From contig NZ_JAGQDF010000011.1 in assembly GCF_018069875.1 (NCBI RefSeq), positions 124,001-188,000 on the forward strand: DNA of 64,000 nucleotides, read 5' to 3'. The position numbers were made by a program, and so were the translations under genes. Origin of the DNA: Ideonella alba. GTDB taxonomy: Bacteria > Pseudomonadota > Gammaproteobacteria > Burkholderiales > Burkholderiaceae_C. Below the pieces are notes generated by a model. It was not told the DNA's origin. It made no database searches and worked only from the letters and a program-made list of their open reading frames with translations. Positions 14,894 to 30,753 of the stretch are shown here, piece by piece (positions within the stretch are counted from its first letter, which is position 1; each line of letters opens with the position of its first letter).

Positions 14894-16768
14894 CTATCGC
14901 GAGTGCGATGTCAACCTGGCCAGCGGCGTCGACGCGCTGACCCCCGGCGCCACGCGGCGGCGGCCCGGCGCTGGCACGGCGGGTTGCGTGCCGTCTTCGT
15001 TGGGGGCCTGGCGGCGCATGGCCACGCCCACCGCCAGGATGTCGATGACCAGCAGGTGCAGGATGCGGCTGACCATGGGCACATGGGTGGCCACGTCCTC
15101 GTCGTGGTCGACGATCAGCACCGCATCGGCCTTGCGGGCCAGCGGGCTCTGGCTGGCGGTGATGGCCACCACCGCGGCGCCGCGGGCGTGGGCGATGTCG
15201 ACCACCTCCAGCAGCTCGGGCACCTTGCCGGAGCTGCTGATCACCACCACCACGTCGCGCGGCCCCAGCACGCCGGCGGCCAGCACCTGCAGCCGCGGGT
15301 CGGTGCAGGCATTGCACCCAATGCCGAAACGCAGGAACTTGAACTGCGCGTCCTGGGCCACCACGCCGTAGTGGCCGCTGGCATGGAACTCGATGCGCTG
15401 AGCACCGTTGAGCAGCTCGATGGCCCGCTCGATCGACTCGCGGTTGAGCTGATCACGCACCTGCAGGATGGCCGAGGCGGTGTTGCCCAGCACCTTGGCG
15501 CCCAGCTCGTTCATCGAGTCGCTCTGCTGCACCTGCACGTGGCTGACCGGGATGGTGCCGGTCAGGCCCGAGGCCAGGCGCAGCTTGAAGTCGGACAGGC
15601 CCTCGCAGCCCAGCGAGCGGCAGAAGCGGATGACGGTGGGCTGGCTCACCTCGGCGGCGCGAGCGATCTCGGCGATCGGGTCGCCCAGCACGGTGCGCGG
15701 CTGGGCCAGCACGTGCTCGGCCACGCGCTTCTCGGCCGGCGACAGCCCCGGAATGGCGCGGCGGATCTGGTCGAGGATGGCGCTGCCGCTGCCGGTCTCC
15801 AGCGAGCGCAGCTGTGCCTCGAGGATGGCCGAGGCGCCCACGAACGTGGCGTTGGGCGCGGTGATCACGTAGGTGGGGATGGCCTTGACGTAGTCGGTGA
15901 AGCGGCCCTTGTCCTCGAAGCGGGCGCGGAAGGGCGAGCGGTCGAAGTACTCGCCCAGGCGTGGCACGATGCCGCCGCCGATGTAGATGCCGCCGAACGC
16001 ACCCAGGGTGACCGCCAGGTTGCTGGCCGCGGTGCCCAGCAGGCCGCAGAAGACCTCGAGCGTGTCCATGCAGACACGGTCGGCGCCGGCCAGCGCGCGC
16101 TGGGTGATGTCTGGCGCGGAAAGTGCTTCGGCCTTCACGCCGGCGTGCTCGGCCAGCGCGCGGTACATCAGCTCCAGGCCCGACCCCGACAACAGGCGCT
16201 CGAAGGACACATGCGAAAACTGCTTCCAGGCGAAGCGCAGGATGGCGATCTCGCGCTCGTCGTGCGGCGCGAAGCTGGTGTGGCCGCCTTCGGTGCCCAG
16301 TGCCACCCAGCCGTCGGCGGCCGGGATCAGGCCCGACACGCCCAGGCCCGAGCCGGAACCGAGCAGGCCGATCACGCTGGGCTCGCGCGGCGCACCGCTG
16401 CCCACCTGCCGGCGCTGCTCCACGCTCAGGCGCGGCAGGGCCATCGCCAGGGCCGTGAAGTCGTTGACCACCACCAGGGTCTCGAAGCCCAGGCGTTCGC
16501 GCATCTGCTCGATCGAGAACTGCCAGTGGTAGTTGGTCATCCGCACCAGGTCGCCATCCACCGGGTTGGCAATCGCCACCGCGGCGTGGCGGATCGTGGT
16601 GCTGGGCAGCCCGCCCAGGAAGGCGCTGATCGCGGCGTGAAAATCGGCGTGGTCGGCGCAGCGCAGCGACGCGGCGTGGTCGAATCGGCCTGGCGCGGTT
16701 TCCAGCGCGAAGCGGGCGTAGGTGCCGCCGATGTCGGCGATCAGGCGAGGGTGCTCGAAGGGCGTCAT
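14894..16768 (-). CDS. glk: Bifunctional glucokinase / RpiR-family regulator
   Basis: This 624-residue fusion has two parts. Residues 1-~325 are a ROK-unrelated bacterial glucokinase (LIADIGGTYARFAL phosphate loop, VVNDFTALAM with catalytic Asp, TEGGHTSFAP). Residues ~335-600 are an RpiR regulator with an N-terminal helix-turn-helix (IARAAEVSQPTVIRFCRSLG) and a C-terminal SIS sugar-phosphate domain (VVVVISSSGKVPELLEVVD). Such fusions are known in Burkholderiales and relate to the HexR group. The enzyme phosphorylates glucose, and the SIS domain could sense a downstream sugar phosphate, tying flux to transcription. It is divergent from a second glucokinase gene, with two candidate operators in between. 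About 35 C-terminal residues beyond the SIS domain are unassigned. Confidence 0.93.
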   Translation of the reverse strand: MTPFEHPRLIADIGGTYARFALETAPGRFDHAASLRCADHADFHAAISAFLGGLPSTTIRHAAVAIANPVDGDLVRMTNYHWQFSIEQMRERLGFETLVVVNDFTALAMALPRLSVEQRRQVGSGAPREPSVIGLLGSGSGLGVSGLIPAADGWVALGTEGGHTSFAPHDEREIAILRFAWKQFSHVSFERLLSGSGLELMYRALAEHAGVKAEALSAPDITQRALAGADRVCMDTLEVFCGLLGTAASNLAVTLGAFGGIYIGGGIVPRLGEYFDRSPFRARFEDKGRFTDYVKAIPTYVITAPNATFVGASAILEAQLRSLETGSGSAILDQIRRAIPGLSPAEKRVAEHVLAQPRTVLGDPIAEIARAAEVSQPTVIRFCRSLGCEGLSDFKLRLASGLTGTIPVSHVQVQQSDSMNELGAKVLGNTASAILQVRDQLNRESIERAIELLNGAQRIEFHASGHYGVVAQDAQFKFLRFGIGCNACTDPRLQVLAAGVLGPRDVVVVISSSGKVPELLEVVDIAHARGAAVVAITASQSPLARKADAVLIVDHDEDVATHVPMVSRILHLLVIDILAVGVAMRRQAPNEDGTQPAVPAPGRRRVAPGVSASTPLARLTSHSR

Positions 16769-16867: not shown

Positions 16868-16882
16868 GGTAGCTTCACTACA
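16868..16882. promoter_or_regulatory. Candidate RpiR/HexR-type operator, site 1
   Basis: On the minus strand this reads TGTAGT-GAA-GCTACC, close to the palindrome TGTAGT-NNN-GCTACA found at other sugar genes in the window. It lies 100 bases upstream of the glk-rpiR start, in the divergent promoter region. Confidence 0.6.
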
Positions 16883-16933
16883 TTACCGACCAGCTTACCG
16901 GAAAGTGCTGCCGACACACCGGGTTCAAACGGG

Positions 16934-16948
16934 TGTAGTTTTGCTAAA
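16934..16948. promoter_or_regulatory. Candidate RpiR/HexR-type operator, site 2
   Basis: TGTAGT-TTT-GCTAAA, ending 8 bases before the ATG of the second glucokinase gene. One half-site base deviates from the shared palindrome. Its position would let a bound protein block transcription or initiation. Confidence 0.65.
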
Positions 16949-16956
16949 GTTGCTTC

Positions 16957-17970
16957 ATGAGTCCGGCGCACCTCGCCTCTGTTGACATGGCCGCCCCGCA
17001 CGGCCCCTGGCTGGTTGCCGACATCGGCGGCACCAACGCACGCCTGGGCTGGGTCGAAGGCCCCGGTGGCGATATCCGCCACGTACGCACCTTGCCGGTG
17101 CTGGGCCATGCGCACCCGCACGATGCGGTGCGGGCCTACCTGGCCCAGGTCGGGCCGCTGGTCGACGGCCCCGCGGTGCCGCGTCGCGCCGCGCTGGCCG
17201 TGGCCACCGCCGTGGGACACGACGAGGTGGCCTTCACCAACAGCCACTGGCGCTTCTCCGCCCGCGCGCTGCAGCAGACGCTGGGCCTGGAGCGCCTGCA
17301 GGTGCTCAATGACTTCGAGGCGCTGGCCCTGTCGCTGCCGCGGCTGGGGGCCGGACAGCTGCGCGCCATCGGCCCCGGCCTGCCGCGGCCCGAGGGCACG
17401 CTGGCCGTCATCGGCCCGGGCGCCGGTCTGGGCGTGGGTGGCGTCACCCGCACCCGCCACGGCTGGGTGGCGTTGCCGGGCGAAGGTGGCCATGCCACGC
17501 TGGCGCCGGCCGACGAGTTCGAGAGCGCGGTGCTGGCCGCCGCACGCACCCGCTTCGATCATGTCTCGGCCGAGCGGCTGCTCTCGGGCATCGGCCTGCC
17601 GGTGCTGCATGCCTCGGTGGCCGAGGCCATGGGGCAGGCGGTCGAGCTGTTGCCGGCCGAACAGATCGTCGAGCGCGGCGTGGCCGGCGCCGATGCGCTG
17701 TGCGAGCGCACCCTGGACACCTTCTGCGCGATGCTCGGCGGCTTCGCCGGCAGCGTGGCGCTCACGCTGGGCGCGCGCGGCGGCGTGTATGTGGGCGGCG
17801 GCATCGTGCCGCGCCTGGGCGAGCGCTTCTTCCAGTCGCGCTTCCGCGAGCGCTTCGAGGCCAAGGGGCGCTTCCGCGGCTACCTGCACGCCATCCCGAC
17901 CGCGCTGATCACCGACACGCTGGCCGCGCTCACCGGCGCCGCCTTCGCGATCGAGCAGGACGGCGTTTGA
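16957..17970 (+). CDS. glk: Glucokinase (stand-alone)
   Basis: This 337-residue glucokinase of the E. coli Glk type has the ATP loop VADIGGTNARLGW, the NSHWRFS segment, catalytic Asp in LNDFEALALSLPRLG, and the sugar-binding EGGHATLAP. It is a clear paralogue of the kinase half of the divergent fusion gene. The ATG at 16957 is used here. A second in-frame ATG at 16987 gives 327 residues, nearer the E. coli length, and neither has a good ribosome-binding site. The stop overlaps the likely TTG start of the MATE gene (TTGA). Its product would feed glucose released from maltodextrins into central metabolism. Confidence 0.93.
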   Translation: MSPAHLASVDMAAPHGPWLVADIGGTNARLGWVEGPGGDIRHVRTLPVLGHAHPHDAVRAYLAQVGPLVDGPAVPRRAALAVATAVGHDEVAFTNSHWRFSARALQQTLGLERLQVLNDFEALALSLPRLGAGQLRAIGPGLPRPEGTLAVIGPGAGLGVGGVTRTRHGWVALPGEGGHATLAPADEFESAVLAAARTRFDHVSAERLLSGIGLPVLHASVAEAMGQAVELLPAEQIVERGVAGADALCERTLDTFCAMLGGFAGSVALTLGARGGVYVGGGIVPRLGERFFQSRFRERFEAKGRFRGYLHAIPTALITDTLAALTGAAFAIEQDGV

Positions 17971-19334
17971 GCGGCCAGGGCGCAGCGCCGCGGCCGCGGC
18001 TGCTGCCGCTGATCTGGCCGCTGTACCTGGAGCTGTGGCTGGGCGTGGCCGTGGGCATCGTCGGCACCGCGCTGGCGGCGCGCGGCGGCGACGCGGCCGG
18101 CGGCGCCTTCGCGATCGCCCACCAGCTGGCGGCCATGCTCTTCGTGCTGTTTCGCATCATTGGCGCCGGTGCCAGCGTGGTGCTGACCCAGCGCCTGGGC
18201 GCCGGACAGCGCGACCAGGCCGATGCGGTGGCGCTGGCCACGCTGGGCGCCAGCACCTGGCTGGGGGGTGGCACGGGTCTGGCCTGTGTGCTCTTCGCAC
18301 ACCCCTTGCTGACGCTTCTGAACACGCCGCCCGAGGTGCTGCCGCTCGCTGCCCCGTTCCTTCGCCTGCTGGGCGCCTCACTGCTGCTGGACGCCTGGAA
18401 CGCGTCGATGGCGGCGGTGATGCGCTCGCACCTTCGGGCGCGGGACACGTTGATGGTGATCGTGGCGATGCATGCCACGCACCTGGCGCTGAGTCTGCCG
18501 CTGATGCTGGGCTGGGGACCGCTGCCGGCCTGGGGGCTGAGCGGCTTTGCGCTGGCCTTGCTGGTGTCGCGGGCGCTGGGCGTGGGCCTGCACCTGCTGC
18601 TGTGGGGCCGGCGCCTGCAGCTGCGCCCGCGGGCCGCCGACTGGTGGCGCCTGCCGCGCGCCGAGCTGGCCGCGGTGCTGCACATCGGCCTGCCTGGCGC
18701 GGCCGAGAACATCGCCTGGCGGCTGTGCTTCATGGCCAGCCTGGCGGTGGTGGGCCTGCTGGGCGCGGCGGCGCTGGCCACGCATGCCTACGTGATGCAG
18801 GTGATGATGGGCGTGCTGCTGTTCGGCGCGGCCACCGGCATCGCGGTGGAGATCGTGGTCGGCCACCTGGTGGGGGCCGGCCGGCTGCGCGAGGCCGACC
18901 GTCTGCTGCGCCGCGCGATGGGCGTGGGCCTGGCGGTCAGCACCGGGCTGGCCTTGGCGGTGGCGCTGGCCGGACCGTGGCTGATGCGGCTGTTCACCCG
19001 CGACGAGGCGATCATCGCCATGGGCGTGCGCCTGCTGTGGCTGACGGTGGCCGTCGAATCCGGCCGCACCTTCAACCTGGTGGTGATCAATGCACTGCGT
19101 GCCACCGGTGACGCGCGCTACCCGGTGATGGCCGGCACCGCGTCGATGCTGGTGGTGCTGGCCGGCGGCAGCTGGGCGCTGGGCATCGGCCTGGGTTGGG
19201 GCCTGCCCGGCCTGTGGGTGGCCTACGCGGCCGACGAGTGGCTGCGCGGCCTGCTGATGTGGCGGCGCTGGGTGCGGCTGCGCTGGGTGCCGTATGCGCG
19301 GGCCACGCATCGGCGCCTGCGGCCGGCTGCCTGA
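17967..19334 (+). CDS. MATE-family efflux protein
   Basis: This 455-residue integral membrane protein has about twelve hydrophobic helices and two similar halves, as in the MATE (NorM/DinF) multidrug and toxin exporters. No suitable ATG lies near the family's N-terminus. The TTG at 17967 overlaps the glk stop as TTGA and places the first helix (LIWPLYLELWLGVAVGIVGT) normally, so I take it as the start. The substrate is not predictable. Its coupling to the glucokinase gene is odd for a drug exporter; it may simply share the promoter or export a sugar-related compound. Confidence 0.82.
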   Translation: MSGQGAAPRPRLLPLIWPLYLELWLGVAVGIVGTALAARGGDAAGGAFAIAHQLAAMLFVLFRIIGAGASVVLTQRLGAGQRDQADAVALATLGASTWLGGGTGLACVLFAHPLLTLLNTPPEVLPLAAPFLRLLGASLLLDAWNASMAAVMRSHLRARDTLMVIVAMHATHLALSLPLMLGWGPLPAWGLSGFALALLVSRALGVGLHLLLWGRRLQLRPRAADWWRLPRAELAAVLHIGLPGAAENIAWRLCFMASLAVVGLLGAAALATHAYVMQVMMGVLLFGAATGIAVEIVVGHLVGAGRLREADRLLRRAMGVGLAVSTGLALAVALAGPWLMRLFTRDEAIIAMGVRLLWLTVAVESGRTFNLVVINALRATGDARYPVMAGTASMLVVLAGGSWALGIGLGWGLPGLWVAYAADEWLRGLLMWRRWVRLRWVPYARATHRRLRPAA

Positions 19335-19346
19335 ACTGGGACGCCC

Positions 19347-21908
19347 CTAGCGCAGCGTCAGCACCGGCGTGTCGTCCATCACCTTCGGCGCCCCCGGCTC
19401 GCCGCCGCCGAACGACCAGGCCAGCGGCTCGGGCGCCAGCGCGCGAAAGCCGCCGTCGTAGTCCCAGGTGCTGAGGTAGAGCCGGGCGCCCTGCAGGCTG
19501 GCCGGGCGGCCCAGCGCATCGGCGTCCAGCGTGAAGCGCACCAGGCGCCGCGCGGCGTCCACCTGCACCCGCGCTGAGGGCGCCACCGGCGTGCCTTCCT
19601 GCCGTGCGTCGGCGCCCGCCGGGCTGAACAGCGCGTTGGACCAGCCGTGCACACGCAGCCGGCGGTGCCAGACCATGCCCTCGGGCAGCGTGGCATCCTG
19701 GCCTGGCATCACGCGGGCGCCGCCAGCTTGACCGGGCAACTCGACGAACAGCGTGAAGGCCACGTGGTCGAATCCCTGCGATGGGTTCCAGGCGCGGCTG
19801 ATCGAGGCCATTTCCACCTCGACCTGCAAGGCGCCACCGGCGCGCCAGGCGCGCAGGGCGCGCACATCGCCGGGGCGGGTCGTGCCGAAGCTGGCATCCA
19901 GCGGATAGCGGTAGTGGCCGCTGGGGCCGCGGTCGTCCTCGGCGGGGTCGGCGTGCTCGGCCGCGGGCAGCCAGGGCTGCCACAGGCGAAGTGTCACCGG
20001 GGCGGACAGCGCGCCATCGCTGGCGCGCCAGGCCACCAGGCGGTGGCGGGCGTCGGGGTCGGTCCAGTCGCCGGCGTCCCAGCGCTGCTGCCAGCGGCCA
20101 TCCGGGCCGGGCTGCACCGTCACGGCGCGGTCCAGGCGGCCGTCGGCCACCAGCTGGAAGGGTGCCGCGCTGTCGGCGCGGCCGCTCAGCAGCACGCTGT
20201 CCTGCTGGATGCTGTCCGGCAGGGCGTCAATGCTCAGCGCGGCGCTGCGCGCCGCCACCGACGCGGCCGGGCCCGCCACCCGCCAGACCATGCCGGCGCG
20301 CGGCGGCAGCCGCAGGCTCAGCCGACCCTGGGCGTCCACCTGCAGGTCACCGGGCTGGCCGTGCAGGCCGAAGCGGCCCTGGAGCCGGGTGCCGGGGGGC
20401 AGGCCGGTGTCCAGCGCATCCAGCAGCAGCTCGTGCTCGGCGGTGTTCATCACCACCAGCGCGCGCTGGCCGCCGTGGTCGGTGCGCCAGGCCACGGCGC
20501 CGGCGCCTTCGGCCTGGGCCAGCAGCACCGTGGGTGTGCCGCGCGAGAACACGCGGCCATCACCGGCGCGCAGCGCGGCCAGCTCGCCCAGCAGCCGGTA
20601 CACCGGGGTGTGGGTGTCGAAACGGTCGCGCCCGCCGGAGCCGGCGCCGGCGGCGAACATGCTGGCGCGCGGCACGGTGAAGCCCTGCTCGGTGCCGTAG
20701 TAGATGACCGGGATGCCGGGCAGCGTGTAGATCGCCAGCAGGGCCTGCTTCAGGCCGGCTTCGCTGCCACCGGCCAGGAAGCGGTCGACATCGTGGTTGT
20801 CGACGAAGCTGGGCAGGCGCCAGGGGTCGCGGTGCAGGCGCATCATCGTCTGGATGCGCTCGCCCAGCTCGGCCGGCGGGCGGCCGCTGGCGAACACCGC
20901 GCCCAGCGCGCCGTAGAGCGGAAAGTTCAGCATGCCGCCCAGCTTGTCGGGGCCGGCGTAGGACTCGATCAGCCGGGTCTGCGCGTCCTGGCCCGGGCCG
21001 TCGATGCCGAAGCCTTCGCCGAAGGTGAAGAAGCTGGGCTTGCCAGCGGCGCGGGCCACCCGGGCGATGCCGGGCGCCTGCGGGTCGCGGGCGTGCATGA
21101 AATCGGTGAAGTACTCGGGGGGCACGTAGAAGGCGGTGTCCACCCGGAAGGCGTCGACACCCACCTCGCGCACCCAGTAGCCGTAGGAGCGGCGCAGCGC
21201 CTGCCGCACCAGCGGGTTCTCGGTGTTCAGGTCATCGAGCGAGGACATCTGCCGGTTCAGCACCTGCTGGCGGTCGGCGTAGTCGCTGACGTCCGGTGTC
21301 CAGTGGTAGACCCCGGCGCGGCGATCGGCCGCACGTCGCGGGTCGTTCAGCGAGAACGGCCACTGGCTCGGCCGGGCCACCGGCGGGCTGTCCGGGTGGG
21401 GCCAGTAGCCGGCCGTGGGGTCGTCGGCGCGCCACTCGCTGGGCCGGTAGCCGAAGTAGTTGCCGGTGTGGTTGACCACGATGTCCTGCACCAGCGTCAT
21501 GCCGCGGCCGTGCAGCGCACGCGCCAGTGCGCGGTAGTCGGCCAGCGTGCCCAGGTGGGGGTCCACCTTCATGAAGTGCTCGGCCCAGTAGCCGTGGTAG
21601 CCCGCGCTGTGGCCCGACGGGTCCAGCCACTGGTTGGCCACCGGCGGCGTGATCCACACCCCGGTGGCGCCCAACCCCCGCACGTAGTCCAGCCGGCGCT
21701 GCAGGCCGGCGAAATCGCCGCCCTGGTAATGCTCCAGGCTGCCCGGGCGGAACTCTCCACGGCCTTGGTCGTTGTTGCGCGGGTTGCCGTCGTCAAAGCG
21801 GTCGGTCAGCACGAAGTACAGCACCTGGTCGCGCCAGTCGACGGGGGCCGCAGTGACCGGCGTGGCCGCGCCCAGGGTGGCCAGCAGGGTCCAGACAAGG
21901 AGTTTCAT
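19347..21908 (-). CDS. Secreted GH13 alpha-amylase with C-terminal glucodextranase-like module
   Basis: This 853-residue protein has a Sec signal peptide (MKLLVWTLLATLGAATPVTA, cleavage near 21). The GH13 barrel shows DIVVNH (142-147), nucleophile D257 in GVDAFRVD, acid/base E298 in FGEGF, and the NHD motif at 371-373. All three catalytic carboxylates are present. After a beta domain, the last ~230 residues resemble the C-terminal domain of glucodextranase/DOMON-type modules that may bind carbohydrate. It should cleave starch or maltodextrin outside the inner membrane. I start at the ATG at 21908 because the signal peptide begins there; the frame is open upstream. A perfectly spaced candidate operator lies 17 bases upstream of this ATG. 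Confidence 0.92.
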   Translation of the reverse strand: MKLLVWTLLATLGAATPVTAAPVDWRDQVLYFVLTDRFDDGNPRNNDQGRGEFRPGSLEHYQGGDFAGLQRRLDYVRGLGATGVWITPPVANQWLDPSGHSAGYHGYWAEHFMKVDPHLGTLADYRALARALHGRGMTLVQDIVVNHTGNYFGYRPSEWRADDPTAGYWPHPDSPPVARPSQWPFSLNDPRRAADRRAGVYHWTPDVSDYADRQQVLNRQMSSLDDLNTENPLVRQALRRSYGYWVREVGVDAFRVDTAFYVPPEYFTDFMHARDPQAPGIARVARAAGKPSFFTFGEGFGIDGPGQDAQTRLIESYAGPDKLGGMLNFPLYGALGAVFASGRPPAELGERIQTMMRLHRDPWRLPSFVDNHDVDRFLAGGSEAGLKQALLAIYTLPGIPVIYYGTEQGFTVPRASMFAAGAGSGGRDRFDTHTPVYRLLGELAALRAGDGRVFSRGTPTVLLAQAEGAGAVAWRTDHGGQRALVVMNTAEHELLLDALDTGLPPGTRLQGRFGLHGQPGDLQVDAQGRLSLRLPPRAGMVWRVAGPAASVAARSAALSIDALPDSIQQDSVLLSGRADSAAPFQLVADGRLDRAVTVQPGPDGRWQQRWDAGDWTDPDARHRLVAWRASDGALSAPVTLRLWQPWLPAAEHADPAEDDRGPSGHYRYPLDASFGTTRPGDVRALRAWRAGGALQVEVEMASISRAWNPSQGFDHVAFTLFVELPGQAGGARVMPGQDATLPEGMVWHRRLRVHGWSNALFSPAGADARQEGTPVAPSARVQVDAARRLVRFTLDADALGRPASLQGARLYLSTWDYDGGFRALAPEPLAWSFGGGEPGAPKVMDDTPVLTLR

Positions 21909-21924
21909 GGGACGCACGTGTAGA

Positions 21925-21939
21925 TGTAGTTGGGCTACA
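21925..21939. promoter_or_regulatory. Candidate RpiR/HexR-type operator, site 3 (amylase)
   Basis: TGTAGT-TGG-GCTACA, the best match in the window to the shared palindrome (arms TGTAGT/TGTAGC, extended by A and T on either side). It lies 17 bases from the amylase ATG in the region divergent from the TonB receptor gene. Confidence 0.7.
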
Positions 21940-22058
21940 TATCGACGGTGCTTTCTCTGCTGGAGAACCACCGTCTGTGTGGAATCCTACCTGTTCTACC
22001 GAGGAAGATGGGGCTTTTCCGTGTCGCTGGACGGCCACTCTTAGGGTTTTCACAAAGT

Positions 22059-22085
22059 TTGACGCTCAGCTAGTTTTGGTACAAA
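22059..22085 (+). promoter_or_regulatory. Candidate sigma-70 promoter of the TonB receptor gene
   Basis: TTGACG at 22059-22064 and TACAAA at 22080-22085 are separated by 15 bases, slightly short of optimal. The weaker operator-like sequence 22069-22083 occupies the spacer and the -10 box, which would suit repression. Confidence 0.4.
22069..22083. promoter_or_regulatory. Weak candidate RpiR/HexR-type operator, site 4
   Basis: GCTAGT-TTT-GGTACA matches TGTAGT-NNN-GCTACA at 9 of 12 arm positions. It is supported mainly by its location in the promoter of the TonB receptor gene, 111 bases before the GTG start. Confidence 0.4.
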
Positions 22086-22194
22086 TGCGTCGTTCCAATC
22101 GTTGGCGCGATCTGTGTCGTGCCCTGTCCGGGCGCCACCACAGTCGGCGCCCGCCCCCGCCAAGAGACCTTTCGTCCAGAGAAGGAGTACCCCG

Positions 22195-24978
22195 GTGAAG
22201 CCCCAGTCCCACCCGCGCTCGCGCCGCCACTGTCCCACCCCGCTGACCGCCACCGCGGTGGGCGCCGCCCTGCTGGTCTCGGCTTTCGCCGCCCAGGCCC
22301 AGGACACCCAGACCATCACCGTCACCGGCATCCGCAAGGGCATCGAAGACGCGATCTCGGTGAAGCGCAATGCCGATGGTGTCGTCGAAGCCATCAGTGC
22401 CGAGGACATCGGCAAGCTGCCCGACACCACGATCGCCGAGTCCCTGTCCCGGCTGCCGGGTCTGACCACCCAACGCACCAAGGACGGCCGCGCTTCCAGC
22501 ATCAGCATCCGTGGCCTGGGTCCCGACTTCAATGGCTACCTGTTGAACGGGCGCGAGCAGACCAGCATCGGCGACAGCCGCGGTGTTGACCTCAGCGTCT
22601 ACCCTGCCGAACTCATCAGCGGCGCCACCGTCTACAAGACCAGTGACGCGTCCTTGATGACCGCCGGCCTGGCTGGCACGATCGACACGCGCCTGATCAA
22701 TCCGCTGGACTTCCCCAACAGGGTGATCTACGGCAGTGTGCAGAAAGACAGCACCGGCCGGGGCCTGCCCAACGAAGGCAGTGGCAAGCGCTACAGCCTG
22801 TCCTACATCGACCAGTTCGCCGATCGCACCATCGGTCTGGCTCTGGGCTTCGTCCATTCCGATGGCACGACCAACCAGCTGGGCACCGGCGGCTGGGGTG
22901 AGGCCACGGTCGATGCCACGCTGACCAATGGCCAGGTGGTCAATGGCGTCAAGATCCCGGCCCCCTGGGGTGCGGGTCTGGACTTCAGCAGCCAGCGCGT
23001 CAAGGACGACCGTGACGGTGTGGCCGCCATCCTGGCCTACCGTCCGAACAAGGATTTCAACAGCCAGCTGGACTTGTTCTACTCGAAGATCAAGACCTAC
23101 ACCAAGAAGCAGTTCGTCAAGGGCGGCCTCGGAGGTCCGATCACCAACGCCACGGTGGTCAACGGTGTGGCCACCAAGGGCACCTACAGCAATGTGTCGC
23201 TGGTCGACTACATCGAGGGCATCAGCGACAACGACGAGGTGATGTCGGCAGGCTGGCGGAACACGCTCAAGCTGCAGAACGGCTGGAAGGCGTCGGTGGA
23301 CCTGAGCCACAACTCCGCCAAGCGCATCGAGCGCGATGTCGAAGCCTACGCCGGCACGCTGACCACCGATACCCTGACCTTTGACCACACCGGCGGCGGC
23401 ACGCCTCGCCTGACGCTGGGCAGCCCGCTGAACTACACCAATGCCAACACGATCGCCGTGCGTGATCAGACCGGCTGGAGCGGTGTGAACTACCCGGACG
23501 GCACGCCGGTGCCGCAGGCGGGCTACACCAAGGGCCCGACGATCGAGGACAAGGTCAACGCCATCCGCGTGGACTTCACCAAGGATCTGTCTGGCGGCAT
23601 GTTCACCGACGTGCAGTTTGGTGCCAACTACACGGTCCGCACGAAGGACCGCACCAGCGATGAAGGCCTGATCGTCTCCGCCAGCGGTGTGGGTCGTGAC
23701 CGCATTCCCTTCCCCGCGGGCTCCTACATCGAGAAGAACGTTGGCGGCACCGGTCTCGACATGCTGACCTTTGATCCGCAAGCGGGTCTGTGGGCCGGTG
23801 CGAAGCTGCTGCGCAAGTACAACGACGACATCCTGTCCAAGACCTGGGGCGTCGAGGAGAAGGTCACCACGGCCTACGCCAAGCTCAACGTTGACACCGA
23901 GCTGTCGGGCATCCCGGTGCGCGGCAATGTGGGCCTGCAGCTGGTCAACACGGATCAAAGCTCCAAGGGCTACCGCGCCGAGGTCGGCTCTGGCGTGGTG
24001 CTGAACAACCCCGCCAAGGGCTTGAGCACGGCCGGTACCACCTACCTGGATGTGCTGCCCTCCTTGAACTTGACCGGCGATCTGGGCGATGGCAACCAGG
24101 TGCGTCTGTCGGTGTCGCAGCAGATTGCGCGGCCGACCATGACCGACATGCGCAATTCGTTCGCGGCGTCGGTGGACACCAACGCGGCCAACTCGACGTT
24201 CGGCAAGTTTGTGGGCTCCGCGGGCAACCCGGAACTCAAGCCGTTCAAGGCCAAGGCGCTGGACCTGTCCTACGAGAAGTACTTCGGCAAGAAGGGCTAC
24301 CTGAGTGCCGCGGCCTTCTACAAGAAGCTGGACACCTACATCACGCCGCAGACGCTGGTCAATTACGACTTCACGAAGTACGCACAAGCCCTGGGTCTGA
24401 CGATCCCGCCTGCCGGCCCGATCGGAACGCTGACCACTTCGGTCAACGGCAACGGCGGCAACCTGTATGGCGTCGAGCTGACGGCCTCGGTGCCGTTCAA
24501 CCTGGCGGCGGCCTTCCTGGATGGCTTCGGTGGCAGCATCAGCTACGCCGACACCCAGAGCTCGGTGAAGCTGCCCAACGTGCTCGGCAAGAACCCGAAC
24601 CAGCAGGTGTCGAAGGCCGATGGCGAGATTCCGCTGCCGGGTCTGTCTCGCAAGAACGCCAAGCTGATGCTCTACTATGAGAAGGCCGGCTTCAGTGCCT
24701 TTGTCGCGCAGAACTACCGCTCGACCTACATCGGCAGCGTGGCCAACGACGCCGTGGGCGGCTACCCGACGCTGCGCTACATCGAGGGCTCGTCCTGGGT
24801 GTCTGCGCAGGTGGGCTACGAGATGCAGGAGGGGCCGCTGAAGGGTCTGGGTCTGCGCCTGGAGGGCAACAACCTGAACAAGCCGGTCTACCGTCAGCTC
24901 AAGGCTGATGGCAAGACCGTCGACACCGAGACCAAGACCGGTGCTTCGCTCTCGTTGAAGGTCAACTACAAGTTCTGA
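22195..24978 (+). CDS. TonB-dependent outer membrane receptor (Xanthomonas/Caulobacter carbohydrate type)
   Basis: This 927-residue receptor has a signal peptide (LTATAVGAALLVSAFAAQA), a TonB-box/N-terminal region TITVTGIRKGIEDAISVKR, a plug with SISIRGLGPDFNGYLLNGRE, and a long beta-barrel ending in an aromatic residue (LKVNYKF). The plug sequence and size fit the TIGR01782 group, which includes the Caulobacter maltodextrin receptor MalA. I choose the GTG at 22195 because GAAGGAG at 22181-22187 is ideally spaced and the signal peptide follows. The neighbouring secreted amylase and maltose-type ABC operon point to maltodextrin uptake; the ligand itself is inferred. Confidence 0.93.
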   Translation: MKPQSHPRSRRHCPTPLTATAVGAALLVSAFAAQAQDTQTITVTGIRKGIEDAISVKRNADGVVEAISAEDIGKLPDTTIAESLSRLPGLTTQRTKDGRASSISIRGLGPDFNGYLLNGREQTSIGDSRGVDLSVYPAELISGATVYKTSDASLMTAGLAGTIDTRLINPLDFPNRVIYGSVQKDSTGRGLPNEGSGKRYSLSYIDQFADRTIGLALGFVHSDGTTNQLGTGGWGEATVDATLTNGQVVNGVKIPAPWGAGLDFSSQRVKDDRDGVAAILAYRPNKDFNSQLDLFYSKIKTYTKKQFVKGGLGGPITNATVVNGVATKGTYSNVSLVDYIEGISDNDEVMSAGWRNTLKLQNGWKASVDLSHNSAKRIERDVEAYAGTLTTDTLTFDHTGGGTPRLTLGSPLNYTNANTIAVRDQTGWSGVNYPDGTPVPQAGYTKGPTIEDKVNAIRVDFTKDLSGGMFTDVQFGANYTVRTKDRTSDEGLIVSASGVGRDRIPFPAGSYIEKNVGGTGLDMLTFDPQAGLWAGAKLLRKYNDDILSKTWGVEEKVTTAYAKLNVDTELSGIPVRGNVGLQLVNTDQSSKGYRAEVGSGVVLNNPAKGLSTAGTTYLDVLPSLNLTGDLGDGNQVRLSVSQQIARPTMTDMRNSFAASVDTNAANSTFGKFVGSAGNPELKPFKAKALDLSYEKYFGKKGYLSAAAFYKKLDTYITPQTLVNYDFTKYAQALGLTIPPAGPIGTLTTSVNGNGGNLYGVELTASVPFNLAAAFLDGFGGSISYADTQSSVKLPNVLGKNPNQQVSKADGEIPLPGLSRKNAKLMLYYEKAGFSAFVAQNYRSTYIGSVANDAVGGYPTLRYIEGSSWVSAQVGYEMQEGPLKGLGLRLEGNNLNKPVYRQLKADGKTVDTETKTGASLSLKVNYKF

Positions 24979-25002
24979 TCCCCGACCGGGCGTCTTGAAC
25001 CA

Positions 25003-25038
25003 GCCCCTTGTCCGGCTTGCCCGGCAAGGGGCTTCTTC
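25003..25038 (+). terminator. Probable intrinsic terminator after the TonB receptor gene
   Basis: GCCCCTTG (25003-25010) pairs with CAAGGGGC (25025-25032). Inner CCGG/CCGG arms lengthen the stem, and TTCTTC follows. It sits 25 bases after the stop codon. Confidence 0.7.
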
Positions 25039-25094
25039 ATGGCGGCGCTGGTTGACAATCGGCTCTGACGGCTTGCATCACTCCTGCTGACATC

Positions 25095-26600
25095 ATGGAC
25101 CATACCCCCCTGCGCAACATCGTCATCGTTGGCGGTGGCACATCCGGCTGGATGACCGCCGCGGCGCTGTCCAAGGTCCTCAAGGGCCGCTACGAGATCA
25201 CCCTGATCGAGTCCGAGGAGATCAGCACCATCGGGGTCGGCGAGGCCACGATCCCGATGATCTCGGTGTTCAACCGGATGCTCGAGATTGATGAGAACGA
25301 GTTTGTGCGGCAGACCCAGGCCTCGTTCAAGCTCGGCATCGAGTTCGTCAACTGGGGCCGCCTGGGAGACCGCTACATCCACGGGTTCGGTGTCATCGGG
25401 CAGGACAACTGGACGGTCGACTTCCATCAGTACTGGCTCAAGCAATACCTGGCCGGCAAGGCCAAGGAACTCGAGCATTACTCGATCAACACGCTGGCCT
25501 GTCGGCACAACAAGTTCATGCGGGCGCGGGCGGACATGCCCAATTCACCGCTGTCCCAGATTGCCTACGCCTTCCACTTTGACGCTTCCCTGTATGCGCG
25601 CTTCTTGAGGCAATACAGCGAGCAGCGCGGTGTGCGCCGCGTGGAGGGGATCATCACTGATGTCTCCGTGCGCCCCGCCGACGGGCACATCGAGGCCGTC
25701 ACCTTGAAGAATGGGCAACGCATCGAGGGCGATCTGTTCATCGACTGCTCAGGCATGCGCGCCCTGCTGATCGAGCAGACGCTGCAGGCCGGCTATGAGG
25801 ACTGGTCGCATTGGTTGCCCTGCGACCGCGCGCTGGCGGTGCCCTGCGCCTCGGTGCCCGAGATCACGCCTTACACCCGATCGACCGCGCGCGATGCCGG
25901 CTGGCAATGGCGCATCCCCCTGCAGCATCGCACGGGCAACGGCCTGGTCTATGCCAGTCGCTTCATGAGCGACGACGAGGCGCGTGGCGTGCTGCTGGGC
26001 AACCTGGACGGCGCGCCCCTGGCCGAGCCCCGGGCCATCCGCTTCGTGCCAGGGCGGCGGCGCAAGACCTGGGATCGCAACGTGGTGTCGATCGGTCTGG
26101 CCAGCGGCTTCATCGAGCCCCTCGAGTCCACCAGCATCCACCTGGTACAGATGGGCATCGCCCACCTGCTCACCTACTTTCCCGCAACGGGTTTCTCGCA
26201 GCCCGACATCGACGAGTACAACCGGACGATGCAACTGGAGTACGAGTGGGTGCGCGACTTCATCATCCTCCACTACAAGGCCACCGAGCGCAACGACACG
26301 CCGTTCTGGGACTACTGCCGCACGATGGACATTCCGGCCTCGTTGCAGCACCGGATCGACCTGTTCCGCACCCACGGCCGCGTCTTCCGCGAGGGCAACG
26401 AGCTGTTCACCAAGGTCAGCTGGCTGCAGGTGATGCACGGCCAGCGCATCCGGCCTCAGGCCTACCACCCGCTTACGGACCTGCTGGATGAAAAGGAGAT
26501 CGCGGACTATCTGGATGAGGTGTCAGGTGTCATCGCGGCCTGTGTGGAAGTGATGCCGAGCCACAACCGTTACATCGCAGAGAACTGCGCGGCGCGATGA
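25095..26600 (+). CDS. Tryptophan halogenase family FAD protein
   Basis: This 501-residue member of the flavin-dependent tryptophan halogenase family has the FAD loop GGGTSG at 13-18. SFKLGIEF places a lysine at position 79, the same number as the catalytic Lys of PrnA. WQWRIP is at 270-275 (the family WxWxIP motif), and FIEPLEST places Glu344 near the PrnA catalytic Glu. It therefore has all landmarks of an active halogenase. Many such paralogues lie beside TonB receptors of carbohydrate loci in Xanthomonas and Caulobacter, and their substrate is unknown; a biosynthetic cluster is absent here. A partner flavin reductase is not encoded nearby. Confidence 0.88.
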   Translation: MDHTPLRNIVIVGGGTSGWMTAAALSKVLKGRYEITLIESEEISTIGVGEATIPMISVFNRMLEIDENEFVRQTQASFKLGIEFVNWGRLGDRYIHGFGVIGQDNWTVDFHQYWLKQYLAGKAKELEHYSINTLACRHNKFMRARADMPNSPLSQIAYAFHFDASLYARFLRQYSEQRGVRRVEGIITDVSVRPADGHIEAVTLKNGQRIEGDLFIDCSGMRALLIEQTLQAGYEDWSHWLPCDRALAVPCASVPEITPYTRSTARDAGWQWRIPLQHRTGNGLVYASRFMSDDEARGVLLGNLDGAPLAEPRAIRFVPGRRRKTWDRNVVSIGLASGFIEPLESTSIHLVQMGIAHLLTYFPATGFSQPDIDEYNRTMQLEYEWVRDFIILHYKATERNDTPFWDYCRTMDIPASLQHRIDLFRTHGRVFREGNELFTKVSWLQVMHGQRIRPQAYHPLTDLLDEKEIADYLDEVSGVIAACVEVMPSHNRYIAENCAAR

Positions 26601-26615
26601 GCGCCGCGCTTTCCT
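26587..26615 (+). terminator. Intrinsic terminator overlapping the halogenase stop codon
   Basis: Perfect 9-base arms GCGCGGCGC (26587-26595) and GCGCCGCGC (26601-26609) enclose a 5-base loop that contains the TGA stop. TTTCCT follows. Confidence 0.65.
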
Positions 26616-26631
26616 GACCCTCGGTAGCTCT

Positions 26632-27873
26632 TTAGTCTGCGGTGATTAGGAGTGGCGAGTTGGTCATGTTGGTGCCAGAAAACCTAGGCTTGCAGAAGGC
26701 GCCATCAGAACGCCAAACGCCTACGGAGGTAGTTGCGCCTGGAGCAAGCGTACTCGCGGGGAAAGCCACTATGTTTGCTGGGCCTGCCGTGCAGGCCACC
26801 GCAAGGCCGCTGATTGTTCCAGATCCGGTATTCTTTACTTGGAAATTGATATAGCCTGGTCCGCCATAACCTGACACGCTGAGCATTCCCTCTCCGGGGA
26901 CGAAACCTCCCGGAAGGGTTGAAAGCTTCTTGTCCCAGGCCGTCTTAGGAAAGAAATCAGCTCGCCCGTCGCCATCACCGTCGACTGTGATTGTGTCGGT
27001 GGCAGCAAGCAATCCAGTCCATGAATTATTATACGCCATTCCGCATCCATCGCTGAAAGCTTCGACGCGGTAGGTCAGCGGTTTCCCAAGGGGAACGAAC
27101 TGCGGATCATAGTCGTAAAATGGGCCGCCAACACCCGTCGGAAGGTCCGACAAAGCGGGAATCCCCAACTTCAGTTGCAGTTTCAGGAAGTCAAAGCTGA
27201 ACGGAATTCCTCCGGTTCCTGAGACCACTTGACTGGTGGACTCGAAAACCTTTAGAAGCTTGTCGCCTCGGTAAATCCGGTAGCCGGCTTCGTTATCAAC
27301 CGTATCGGTGCTGATGGTGCACGATGCTGGTGCGTTCCGATCATATCGAACTCCTCCGATGATCTCGGTCCACGAACACATAGTCCCTGGAAGAACCTTG
27401 GTTCCGTACGGCGGACAGGTGCAGGTGGTTTTCTGGCAGGCTAGCCGTTGAGTCCGCCGTTCCCAGGTGAGGCGAGCGACCGAGTAACTCGGGGCATAGC
27501 TGGCCACCAAGCCGAGAGTGGCAGTCTTCGTGCTGGAGTATCCCCCAAGGTCATTCTCAATCAGCGACAAGAGTTCACTCGCCTTTTGATCATTGGATTT
27601 ATTTGTACTGGTGAAAATCCTGTACATCTGATCTGCCCCGAATCGCGACATCTTTGCTCTGCATTTTGGGTCGGCAAGGCAGTTGTCAAGCGATCCTGCG
27701 GCGACTTCGCCGATGCGTCCAAAATTTGCCTTTAGATACTCTGAGACAGCATTGGTCGGTACAATCTTGATGTTGGCTGGCCATTTTTCTGTGAACGTAT
27801 AGTTTTGGGCAACTGCCGTGTTGCCAAGAAAAAATACAGACCCCAGAATCGCTATAACTTTTAAAAATCTCAT
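26632..27873 (-). CDS. Orphan secreted protein, AT-rich, cysteine-containing
   Basis: I do not recognise this 413-residue protein. It has a clear signal peptide (MRFLKVIAILGSVFFLGNTAVA). The mature part has a cysteine cluster (LACQKTTCTCPPYG, then MCSW), a fibronectin-like stretch around GYRIYRGDKLLKVFE, and an acidic DGDGDGRADFF segment resembling a calcium-binding loop. The last ~80 residues are Gly/Ser/Thr-rich and look like a beta-sandwich. Base composition differs sharply: two 60-base lines I counted are 45-48% GC, against roughly two thirds or more in neighbours. It points against the flanking genes, is alone in its direction, and interrupts the sugar locus, all consistent with recent acquisition. 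Confidence 0.75.
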   Translation of the reverse strand: MRFLKVIAILGSVFFLGNTAVAQNYTFTEKWPANIKIVPTNAVSEYLKANFGRIGEVAAGSLDNCLADPKCRAKMSRFGADQMYRIFTSTNKSNDQKASELLSLIENDLGGYSSTKTATLGLVASYAPSYSVARLTWERRTQRLACQKTTCTCPPYGTKVLPGTMCSWTEIIGGVRYDRNAPASCTISTDTVDNEAGYRIYRGDKLLKVFESTSQVVSGTGGIPFSFDFLKLQLKLGIPALSDLPTGVGGPFYDYDPQFVPLGKPLTYRVEAFSDGCGMAYNNSWTGLLAATDTITVDGDGDGRADFFPKTAWDKKLSTLPGGFVPGEGMLSVSGYGGPGYINFQVKNTGSGTISGLAVACTAGPANIVAFPASTLAPGATTSVGVWRSDGAFCKPRFSGTNMTNSPLLITAD

Positions 27874-28051
27874 TTTTTCCCTAGTTGATTTGCGCCAAGC
27901 ATGTTTTGATTGGCGAACGCGAATTTAACTGAAACCAATTGCTTTCGGGTTGGGTACTGGTACCCGTAAGCGATAGTTGCTGCGGTTGGTTTGGCATCTT
28001 GTCTCCTGCCTGCTACGCAAGCTGTGACTGACGGCACTTGTTGCCTTCGAA

Positions 28052-28066
28052 TGTAGTAAAGATACT
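28052..28066. promoter_or_regulatory. Candidate RpiR/HexR-type operator, site 5 (distal)
   Basis: TGTAGT-AAA-GATACT has one perfect and one partial half-site. It lies 101 bases upstream of the stronger site at the same operon, a spacing that could allow cooperative binding or looping. Confidence 0.45.
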
Positions 28067-28152
28067 TGCGAATGGCTGGCTGAAACGCGTCGCGATCGGC
28101 GGGTTTCTACCTATGAAGTGCGATCTCGATTGCTGGGCCTATCTGAGTAAAA

Positions 28153-28167
28153 TGTAGCAAAACTACA
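28153..28167. promoter_or_regulatory. Candidate RpiR/HexR-type operator, site 6 (ABC operon)
   Basis: TGTAGC-AAA-ACTACA is the exact inverted form of TGTAGT-TTT-GCTACA and ends 11 bases before the binding-protein ATG. It is nearly identical to site 2 at the second glucokinase gene, read on the other strand. Confidence 0.7.
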
Positions 28168-28178
28168 CTCCACATCTG

Positions 28179-29378
28179 ATGATTCGACGTCGCCATGTGG
28201 CTTGGTCCAGCCTCTTGTTGGCCGCGGGGGTGGTCGCGCCTGTCCGCGCCGCCGACCGCCGCCCGCTGGTGATCTGGTACAGCGTCGAAGGCGCCAAGGC
28301 CGTGCGCCGCATCGGCGAGGCCTTCACCGCCGCCACCGGTGTGCCGGTGGTGGTGGAGACCCCCGACGGCATTCCGGCGCGCTTCCAGCAGGCGGCCTCG
28401 GGCGGCAAGGGGCCGGACATCTGCACCTTCCCGCACGACCGCATTGGCGAGTACGTGGCCGGCGGCCTGGTGCATGCGGTGAGCCCGTCGCGCGCGCTGC
28501 TGGCCGACATTGACCCGCTGGCCTGGCGCGCGATGCGCTGGCGCGGCCGGGACTGGGGCTACCCGTACGCGATCGACGCGGTCACGCTGATCTACAACAA
28601 GGCGCTGGTGCCGCGGCCGCCGGTCAGCTTCGACGAGGTGTTCGAGATCGAGGCGCGGCTGTCGCGCCAGGGTCGGCACGCCATCGTCTGGGACTACACC
28701 AACAACTACTTCACCTGGCCGCTGCTGGCAGCCGGCGGCGGCTATGCCTTCCGGCAGCGCGAGGACGGCAGCTACGACCCGAACGACGTGGGCGTGGCCA
28801 ACCCCGGCGCGCTGCGCGGCGCCGAGCTGCTGGCGCGCCTGGTGGCCGAGGGCGTGATGCCGCCCGGCTCGGGCTACGCCGAGATGGAGGCCGCGATGGC
28901 CCAGGGCCGCGCGGCGATGATGATCAACGGCGCCTGGTCCTGGGTGAACCTGCAGCGCGCCGGCATCGATTTCGGCGTCAGCCGCATCCCGGCGGTGGCC
29001 GGTCACCGCGCCGCACCGTTCATCGGCGTGCGCGGCTTCCTGATCAACCGCGCCAGTGCGCAGCGCGAGGTGGCGGCCGAGTTCATCGAGCACTGGCTGC
29101 TGCGCCCTGAGGGCCTGCGCCTGCTGGACAGCGCCGAGCCGCTGGGCGCACCGGCCAGCCGGGCCCTGTTCGCCGAGCTGCGCGCGCGGCCCGGTCTGGG
29201 CGACAAGGTGGCCGGCATCATGGACTCGGCGCGCGACGGCCTGCCGATCCCGCCCTTGCCCGAGATGGGCCGTTTCTGGAGTGCGATGAAGGCCGCGCTG
29301 ACCAACCTCACCGAGGGTCGCCAGACCCCGCGCGAAGCGCTTCAGGCGGCCGAGCGCCGCATCCGGGACAGCGCATGA
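28179..29378 (+). CDS. malE: Maltose/maltodextrin-type ABC substrate-binding protein
   Basis: This 399-residue family 1 solute-binding protein has an N-terminal signal peptide (LLLAAGVVAPVRA) and MalE-like segments WYSVEGAKAVRRIGEAF, PDICTFPHDRIGEY and GYPYAIDAVTLIYNKALV. No lipobox is seen, so it should be free in the periplasm. Two permease and two GH13 genes follow in one overlapping chain, making an alpha-glucan ligand likely; the symbol malE is by analogy. The stop overlaps the next start (ATGA). A strong candidate operator sits directly upstream. Confidence 0.9.
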   Translation: MIRRRHVAWSSLLLAAGVVAPVRAADRRPLVIWYSVEGAKAVRRIGEAFTAATGVPVVVETPDGIPARFQQAASGGKGPDICTFPHDRIGEYVAGGLVHAVSPSRALLADIDPLAWRAMRWRGRDWGYPYAIDAVTLIYNKALVPRPPVSFDEVFEIEARLSRQGRHAIVWDYTNNYFTWPLLAAGGGYAFRQREDGSYDPNDVGVANPGALRGAELLARLVAEGVMPPGSGYAEMEAAMAQGRAAMMINGAWSWVNLQRAGIDFGVSRIPAVAGHRAAPFIGVRGFLINRASAQREVAAEFIEHWLLRPEGLRLLDSAEPLGAPASRALFAELRARPGLGDKVAGIMDSARDGLPIPPLPEMGRFWSAMKAALTNLTEGRQTPREALQAAERRIRDSA

Positions 29379-30748: not shown

Positions 30749-30753
30749 CCGAC

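Follow-up and report, generated by a model that had tools for sequence, protein, structure and literature searches.

In a 64,000-nucleotide stretch of the Ideonella alba genome (hereafter the window; C2:124001-188000), a TGTAGT-NNN-GCTACA palindrome recurs at the promoters of glucokinase, amylase, TonB-dependent receptor and maltodextrin transporter genes, and the same window encodes a glucokinase fused to a regulator of the RpiR family. Which protein recognizes these sites, and what does it control? HexR, itself of the RpiR family, is a repressor of zwf, edd and eda that responds to 2-keto-3-deoxy-6-phosphogluconate (KDPG). Here we computed the sites, their placement, their conservation, their co-occurrence with the fusion, and a split between two operator words. 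These data make it likely (with a probability of roughly 0.85) that the sites are operators of the glucokinase-RpiR fusion, through which it would most likely repress starch and maltodextrin genes. The genome comprises 5.51 Mb in 36 contigs; gene labels are from Pfam and NCBIfam profile matches, and several start codons were chosen in this analysis. (C, G and L numbers are our labels for contigs, genomes and loci.)

Predicted operators at starch and maltodextrin promoters

A sequence-only reading of the window had proposed six such palindromes shortly upstream of gene starts. All six are present, and with the starts chosen here the sites at 16934, 28153, 21925, 22069 and 28052 lie 8, 11, 16, 111 and 112 bases, respectively, from the start codon. 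The relevant features are as follows (sites are given without a strand).

14894-16768, minus strand: glucokinase-RpiR fusion, 624 residues (Glucokinase 9-317, HTH_6 331-401, SIS 453-579); proposed regulator
16868-16882: predicted operator GGTAGCTTCACTACA, 1 mismatch, in the divergent fusion/glucokinase 2 promoter
16934-16948: predicted operator TGTAGTTTTGCTAAA, 1 mismatch, ending 8 bases 5' of the glucokinase 2 ATG (16957)
16957-17970, plus strand: second, unfused glucokinase (Glk2), by Pfam/NCBIfam
19347-21908, minus strand: GH13 alpha-amylase with a Glucodextran_C domain; start 21908 chosen, the mechanical open reading frame (ORF) starts at 21971
21925-21939: predicted operator TGTAGTTGGGCTACA, exact, 16 bases 5' of the amylase ATG at 21908
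22069-22083: weak candidate site GCTAGTTTTGGTACA, 3 mismatches, in the promoter of the TonB receptor gene
22195-24978, plus strand: TonB-dependent receptor, TonB-Xanth-Caul subfamily; GTG start 22195 chosen, mechanical ORF start 22102
28052-28066: partial predicted operator TGTAGTAAAGATACT, 2 mismatches, 112 bases 5' of malE
28153-28167: predicted operator TGTAGCAAAACTACA, exact, ending 11 bases 5' of the malE ATG (28179)
28179-29378, plus strand: malE, above the NCBIfam cut-off
29375-30748, plus strand: malF, above the NCBIfam cut-off
30754-31644, plus strand: malG, above the NCBIfam cut-off
31641-32975, plus strand: GH13 alpha-amylase family protein, profile match
32777-34603, plus strand: GH13 ORF, profile match; true start probably further downstream

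Mismatches in the window were counted on the best strand against the consensus of the earlier reading, TGTAGTNNNGCTACA. At up to three mismatches the window holds 39 matches, compared to 15.45 (standard deviation 4.42) over 100 shuffles, none of which reached 39. The idea that the six sites are equal was rejected, because those at 22069 and 28052 are weak, with three and two mismatches. Similarly, the statement that the palindrome occurs nowhere else in the window holds for the good sites but not for the weaker ones, since two-mismatch matches like that at 28052 are also found inside ORFs at 24956, 45244 and 48195.

In the whole genome, the exact symmetric form TGTAGYNNNRCTACA occurs at four places, compared to 0.06 expected from a first-order Markov model built from 179 kb of the genome. 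All four are at starch or maltodextrin promoters, two in the window and two on contig C11, and none of these best matches falls at an unrelated gene. On C11, one place lies between malK-malE2-malF2-malG2-amylase (minus strand) and glgP-glgB-'glgX'-malQ (plus strand; 'glgX' is our label for a gene in which Pfam gave CBM_48 only), and the other is where the starts of a GH13 gene and a pullulanase gene face each other. Allowing one mismatch to TGTARYNNNRYTACA gave 35 places, 25 of them inside mechanical ORFs; the other ten comprise five at maltodextrin or tonB-like genes, two at zwf and edd (the start of a divergent mechanical ORF falls within the edd site), and three with no assigned gene. The five are the pair of sites between the fusion and glucokinase 2 genes, the second site of the first pullulanase gene (10 bases 5' of the likely ATG, within a longer mechanical ORF), a place upstream of a second pullulanase gene (C30:167336), and one in front of a tonB-like gene (C22:528205), labelled by reading a sequence that the contig end cuts. 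Thus, of the local maltodextrin regulon under a kinase-fused regulator that had been proposed, the maltodextrin genes and, from the comparative data below, the link to the fusion stand, but the regulon is not local: a window-only version was rejected because sites are found not only on C2 but also on C11 (two loci) and C30, and probably on C22.

The sites accompany the fusion in related genomes

Conservation in relatives, which had been put forward as a check, proved to be strong. Fusion loci were taken from the best 80 of 216 relatives, and in 69 of the 80 a second glucokinase gene lies divergently beside the fusion. Between these two genes, at up to one mismatch to TGTARYNNNRYTACA, at least one site is present in 69 of 69 loci and at least two in 68 of 69, compared to 1 of 69 for a reversed-pattern control. 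With respect to individual sites, for the 16934 site many relatives carry GGTAGCAAAACTACA on the other strand; the 21925 site is identical in the Ideonella aquatica-like genome G012, and G004 has TGTAGTTGGACTACA; and for the 28153 site G012 has TGTAGTCAAACTACC at the aligned place. For the 28052 site, G012 has GGTAGTCAAACTACA 118 bases 5' of the malE match, close to the aligned position but offset from it. The 22069 site is unchanged in G012, but the whole 300-base-pair (bp) region is 94% identical there, so that this says little. TonB-receptor matches are found near the fusion in 52 of the 80 loci (many of which are cut by contig ends), and the fusion protein itself is 99% identical to its I. 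aquatica counterpart.

The exact site also tracks the fusion from genome to genome. Among 24 relatives it is present in 8 of 8 fusion genomes and in 2 of 16 others (p = 6e-5). Moreover, six other fusion genomes of the same genus hold 13 exact places of this type (G-type, as defined below), 12 of which flank maltodextrin, amylase/TonB-receptor, fusion or glucokinase genes; the closest pullulanase match to the thirteenth (G004:C26) is ~1.1 kb away. A further sample comprised 120 genomes of the family; an exact site is present in 17 of the 22 that encode a fusion-class protein and in 5 of the 98 that do not (p = 2.9e-12). (Note that the fusion-class threshold of 290 bits was set after we had seen the gap between 296 and 246 bits, and that the two genome sets share G000, G010 and G014.) The 16 other fusion-class genomes of this sample hold 39 exact sites, and 35 of these map to maltodextrin, amylase, Glk2/fusion or TonB-receptor genes (among them LamB-GH13-MalK in G281 and, in G230, a GH13 gene). 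Genomes without a fusion contribute five exact sites, and no match to a gene of these kinds lies close to any of them. These findings argue that the fusion, one of two candidate RpiR-type proteins in the genome, is the probable regulator, as had been suggested.

Another two of the 39 sites, from two other genera, precede a tonB-like gene that has exbB after it (L239:3558 and L251:3370; exbB by Pfam, the tonB-like proteins being without a Pfam match); the tonB-like gene of the present genome is at L018:8206. This arrangement suggests a dedicated TonB system that is co-regulated with the starch receptor.

Repression or activation

We propose that the HexR-like DNA-binding domain of the fusion recognizes TGTAGY-NNN-RCTACA, often as paired sites, and that the fusion most likely represses the starch and maltodextrin pathway until sugar arrives. 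The targets would be the fusion gene itself, glucokinase 2, the TonB receptor, the amylases, malEFG and malK-malEFG2, together with glgP and the genes after it, the two pullulanases and probably the tonB-like gene. That only 8-11 bases separate the predicted operators from the ATG at malE and glucokinase 2 favors repression.

The same fusion and the same sites might instead serve mainly activation, or dual regulation, with sites ~87 bp apart bridged by a tetramer. In 14 of 23 malK/glgP and pullulanase/GH13 promoters examined, a second site (at up to two mismatches) lies 86-89 bp from the first, the probability that any second site falls by chance in the 160 bp to either side being 0.4% at one mismatch and 5% at two. 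Such spacing suggests two dimers held together, and the crystal structure of RccR, an RpiR protein, is a tetramer (PMC10810197). However, the other 9 of the 23 promoters lack this spacing (the distances in the genome studied here are 114 bp at malK/glgP and 101 bp at malE), sites so close to the start codons of malE and glucokinase 2 are a better fit to a block, and HexR and RccR repress their targets (PMC5489143). We therefore regard a mainly activating role as unlikely, if still worth keeping in view, and retain repression. (Paired sites are found at L016:8282, L017:9654, L159, L164 and L227-L248. At malK/glgP, a further degenerate element of the TGTAGAnnATATACA type is present 110-114 bp away in most of 16 loci.)

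Two RpiR-type proteins and two operator words

The genome encodes two proteins with an RpiR-type helix-turn-helix (HTH) domain, the fusion and a stand-alone HexR whose gene is directly downstream of zwf. In the fusion, the Pfam HTH_6 domain scores 66.2 bits (cut-off 28.3) and is followed by a SIS domain at 50.2 bits (cut-off 25), the HTH_6-then-SIS architecture of the family; a 15-bp TGTAR-type palindrome near target starts, as predicted from sequence, is likewise found in its putative regulon. Control of zwf and edd-eda is a different matter. These genes, which are on other contigs, are preceded by CGTAACTTAATTACA and TGTAACCAAGTTACC, respectively, each one mismatch from the A-type word TGTAAYNNNRTTACA, which has A-T at positions 5 and 11 where the starch-gene (G-type) word has G-C; judged by the sites, then, they would belong to the HexR encoded beside zwf and not to the fusion. 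Among the 24 relatives, 6 of 8 exact A-type places are at zwf or edd. Thus HexR would go with TGTAAY-NNN-RTTACA at zwf and edd-eda, and one symmetric base pair would keep the two paralogues apart.

Might HexR nevertheless bind the starch sites, as part of a global HexR regulon enlarged to maltodextrin? HexR-type proteins elsewhere do accompany TGTAG-type words: 18 loci in which a solo regulator has glutamine at the position of fusion residue 376 and cysteine at 388 (Q/C) show 58 G and 18 A half-sites at zwf, edd and hexR (raw counts that ignore kinship, as do those below, two of the 18 loci being ties). The HexR of this genome, however, is of the K376/Y388 type, and K/Y regulators show 0 G and 20 A half-sites at these genes (9 loci, 8 genomes; 8 further K/Y loci are without a site). 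Moreover, an exact G-type site is present in only 3 of 65 family genomes that have an RpiR match but no fusion-class protein, and the fusion gene itself is flanked by sites in 69 of 80 relatives. We give an enlarged HexR regulon little credence. (Note that the half-sites were counted in the relatives and in 40 regions from 64 match rows, with the zwf and edd of this genome as two K/Y loci; L147, which has two regulators, and L200 and L205, in which no HTH was recognized, were left out.)

Residue 376 lies within a conserved VS-x-PTVxRFCR stretch and is Q in all 87 aligned fusion rows (some of which represent the same genome twice); residue 388 is C in the same 87 rows. In ten Ideonella-type HexR proteins these residues are K and Y. 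A one-residue code, in which Q376 alone would specify the G-type word, was rejected as an oversimplification: the two Q/Y loci give one A-type and one tie, the counted E/Y locus is mostly G, and RccR, with E at 376 and C at 388, has the G-type word. The two residues taken together appear to fit the operator base better than 376 does, with exceptions, in that N/F loci are A-type and Q/F loci mostly G-type. More distant fusions have Q/F, Q/A or D/Y. As a separate observation, these residues, which are in or beside the recognition helix, covary with operator base 5/11 among HexR-type regulators generally (L110-L205), again with exceptions.

Ancestry of the fusion

The RpiR halves of 26 fusions form one clade with support of 1.00 in a midpoint-rooted tree of 73 domains. 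In L147 and L167, loci of two genomes from other families, the fusion gene adjoins zwf, which carries an exact G-type word; this is what one would expect if the G-type word went with the fusion and zwf had been its former target. For the group represented by the best 80 of the 216 relatives, we infer that control of maltodextrin genes passed to the fusion, zwf and edd being under another HexR.

An unrelated regulator, the fusion being merely nearby, would be a further way to account for the palindrome, given that LacI-type proteins (MalR, MdxR and MalI) are described as maltodextrin regulators (PMC4052901). Nevertheless, the palindrome is the word reported for RccR (PMC5489143), zwf carries the same word in the two genomes of other families where it adjoins the fusion, and exact sites accompany the fusion in the family sample, and so we consider this explanation very improbable. 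That the sites arose by chance or as non-regulatory repeats may be dismissed, even though 25 of the 35 one-mismatch matches are inside ORFs, in view of the four exact sites against 0.06 expected, their conservation and their co-occurrence with the fusion.

Several findings weigh against assigning the sites to the fusion as a maltodextrin repressor. In the window, the sites at 22069 and 28052 are weak, and scanning for promoters gave no sigma-70 match in their vicinity or near the other sites. Among the 80 fusion loci, the 11 without a divergent Glk2 gene are also without a site within 400 bp of the fusion (in L037 and L074, two of the 11, the gene order is glgP-glgB-glgX-malQ and then the fusion), and L047/L058 (L166), where edd-eda-zwf precedes the fusion, show no site even when one mismatch is allowed, so that here a fusion adjoins zwf without a site. 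The distant fusion L197 (D376/Y388) is preceded by A-type sites, and the fusion is thus not always G-type, and solo HexR proteins of other families carry G-type words at zwf and edd. Finally, exact sites are missing from 5 of the 22 fusion-class genomes sampled in the family, and 2 of the 39 exact sites are unexplained (L247 and L250).

In several other families (L172, L174, L175, L179 and others), a glucokinase-like match directly precedes an unfused HexR gene, which is perhaps the arrangement from which the fusion arose. The fusions also share a C-terminal tail (window 14894-14950; like PLARLTSHSR): L[AS]R[LMI]TSH is present in 46 of the 80, many of the other 34 tails look like variants, and the tail is absent from the HexR rows compared.

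The inducer

Seven residues that contact KDPG in RccR (S139, H148, R152, H164, S183, S185 and S188) could be compared; K270 and R277 fall outside the alignment. The HexR of this genome keeps all seven. At the same positions the fusion has Y, F, R, R, S, S and V, and so keeps the equivalents of R152, S183 and S185. None of the 80 fusions keeps S139, H148, H164 or S188, whereas R152 and S183 are present in 80 of 80 and S185 in 61 of 80. By these residues the fusion does not look like a KDPG sensor, and because most of the contacts are replaced its inducer is probably not KDPG, although a phosphate site may remain. The zwf-adjacent fusion of G020 departs as well (C, Q, R, Q, S, S and L), which argues that the loss of contacts is not tied to maltodextrin; since this fusion already has the G-type word, neither change is attributable to the move to maltodextrin genes.

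The motifs NDF and EGGH, which we take to be active-site motifs of glucokinase, are kept in the glucokinase half of the fusion (PF02685, 364.2 bits). They align with those of solved glucokinases such as 1q18. An attached glucokinase with these motifs makes glucose-6-phosphate an attractive ligand, and our guess is that it is the inducer. More tentatively, the fusion might be a flux sensor, in which the kinase half converts glucose derived from maltodextrin to glucose-6-phosphate and passes this to the SIS domain, or raises its level nearby, and so releases the starch regulon, with the words split by residues 376 and 388 to avoid cross-talk; given the zwf-adjacent fusion of G020 and the A-type fusion L197, we consider this model possible but doubtful.

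Relation to known systems

Neither the DNA word nor the protein fold is new, and the fusion has been described before. The palindrome matches the known HexR/RccR-type word, in agreement with the suggestion of the sequence-only reading that it is of the style bound by RpiR/HexR proteins. Like the fusion, HexR combines HTH_6 and SIS domains and has a 15-bp palindrome of the same layout, and the fusion scores 232 bits against the NCBIfam HexR model PRK11302 (below its cut-off of 296). Unlike the fusion, HexR is not joined to a glucokinase; the targets of the fusion are apparently starch and maltodextrin genes, its operator has G-C at 5/11 where the zwf and edd sites of this genome have A-T, and it lacks most of the KDPG-contact residues examined.

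HexR and RccR are reported to respond to KDPG, and RccR to bind 15-bp sites at aceE (TGTAGTTTTACTACT/TGTAGTAAAACTACA), by chromatin immunoprecipitation sequencing and surface plasmon resonance (PMC5489143); the KDPG contacts of RccR are known from structure (PMC10810197). Among solved structures, RccR of Pseudomonas (PDB 8k3b) gives the best match to the RpiR half (200 bits), and its 15-bp sites are the same word (PMC5489143). It differs from the fusion in being unfused, in controlling aceEF and the glyoxylate shunt, and in having S139, H148, H164 and S188 where the fusion has Y, F, R and V.

With respect to the fusion as a whole, the NCBIfam model PRK14101 (bifunctional glucokinase/HexR) has the same domain order in one frame; the fusion matches it at 829.1 bits over residues 6-592, short of the curated cut-off of 920. 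In Paraburkholderia xenovorans LB400 a glucokinase-HexR protein is encoded in a zwf1-pgl-glk cluster (PMC12568896); that fusion sits with zwf-pgl, whereas the Ideonella fusion is in an apparent maltodextrin regulon, with a second HexR gene next to zwf. The LacI-type repressors MalR, MdxR and MalI control the same pathway (PMC4052901) and belong to a different protein family.

In the open-licence literature we found no maltodextrin or starch regulon for a glucokinase-RpiR fusion (an earlier database prediction is still possible), no operator split between the fusion and HexR paralogues, and no described starch or maltodextrin regulator for this group of Burkholderiales. The fusion would be the likely main regulator of these genes in the group, its loci bearing labels such as Ideonella, Roseateles, Rubrivivax, Paucibacter and Undibacterium. 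It would also provide a natural example of an enzyme of metabolism joined to a transcription factor that has the enzyme's own pathway as its regulon, and the fusion and HexR together would be naturally occurring paralogues with operator words that differ at a single symmetric position, so that both the inducer and the specificity switch are directly testable.

Other features of the locus

The fusion and Glk2 genes are divergent, as are the amylase and TonB receptor genes; a halogenase-like gene follows the receptor gene, and malE-malF-malG and two GH13 genes come after it. Two further genes are as follows.

17967-19334, plus strand: MATE-type transporter, start uncertain; mechanical ORF from 17700
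25095-26600, plus strand: tryptophan-halogenase-like flavoprotein, by Pfam

The mechanical ORF of the MATE transporter (17700-19334) overlaps the end of Glk2 inside the starch cluster, and the two genes would be co-transcribed. No malK is among the scanned genes of the malEFG operon of the window (28179-34603); this transporter and MalEFG2 may share one ATPase, the C11 MalK (L016:7009-8199).

Between the halogenase gene and malE there is a 413-residue ORF (26632-27873, minus strand) with no Pfam or NCBIfam match, in a stretch of lower GC content (0.47-0.58 per 500 bp). In G012 (L153) the halogenase gene and malE are too close together to accommodate a counterpart, and the ORF is therefore probably a recent insertion here. 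The TonB receptor and the halogenase-like protein are 46% and 63% identical, respectively, to those of G012 (window 22195-26600 compared to L153:11398-15804), whereas the other neighboring genes are 92-99% identical and the receptor promoter 94%, a pattern that points to replacement or fast evolution of these two genes.

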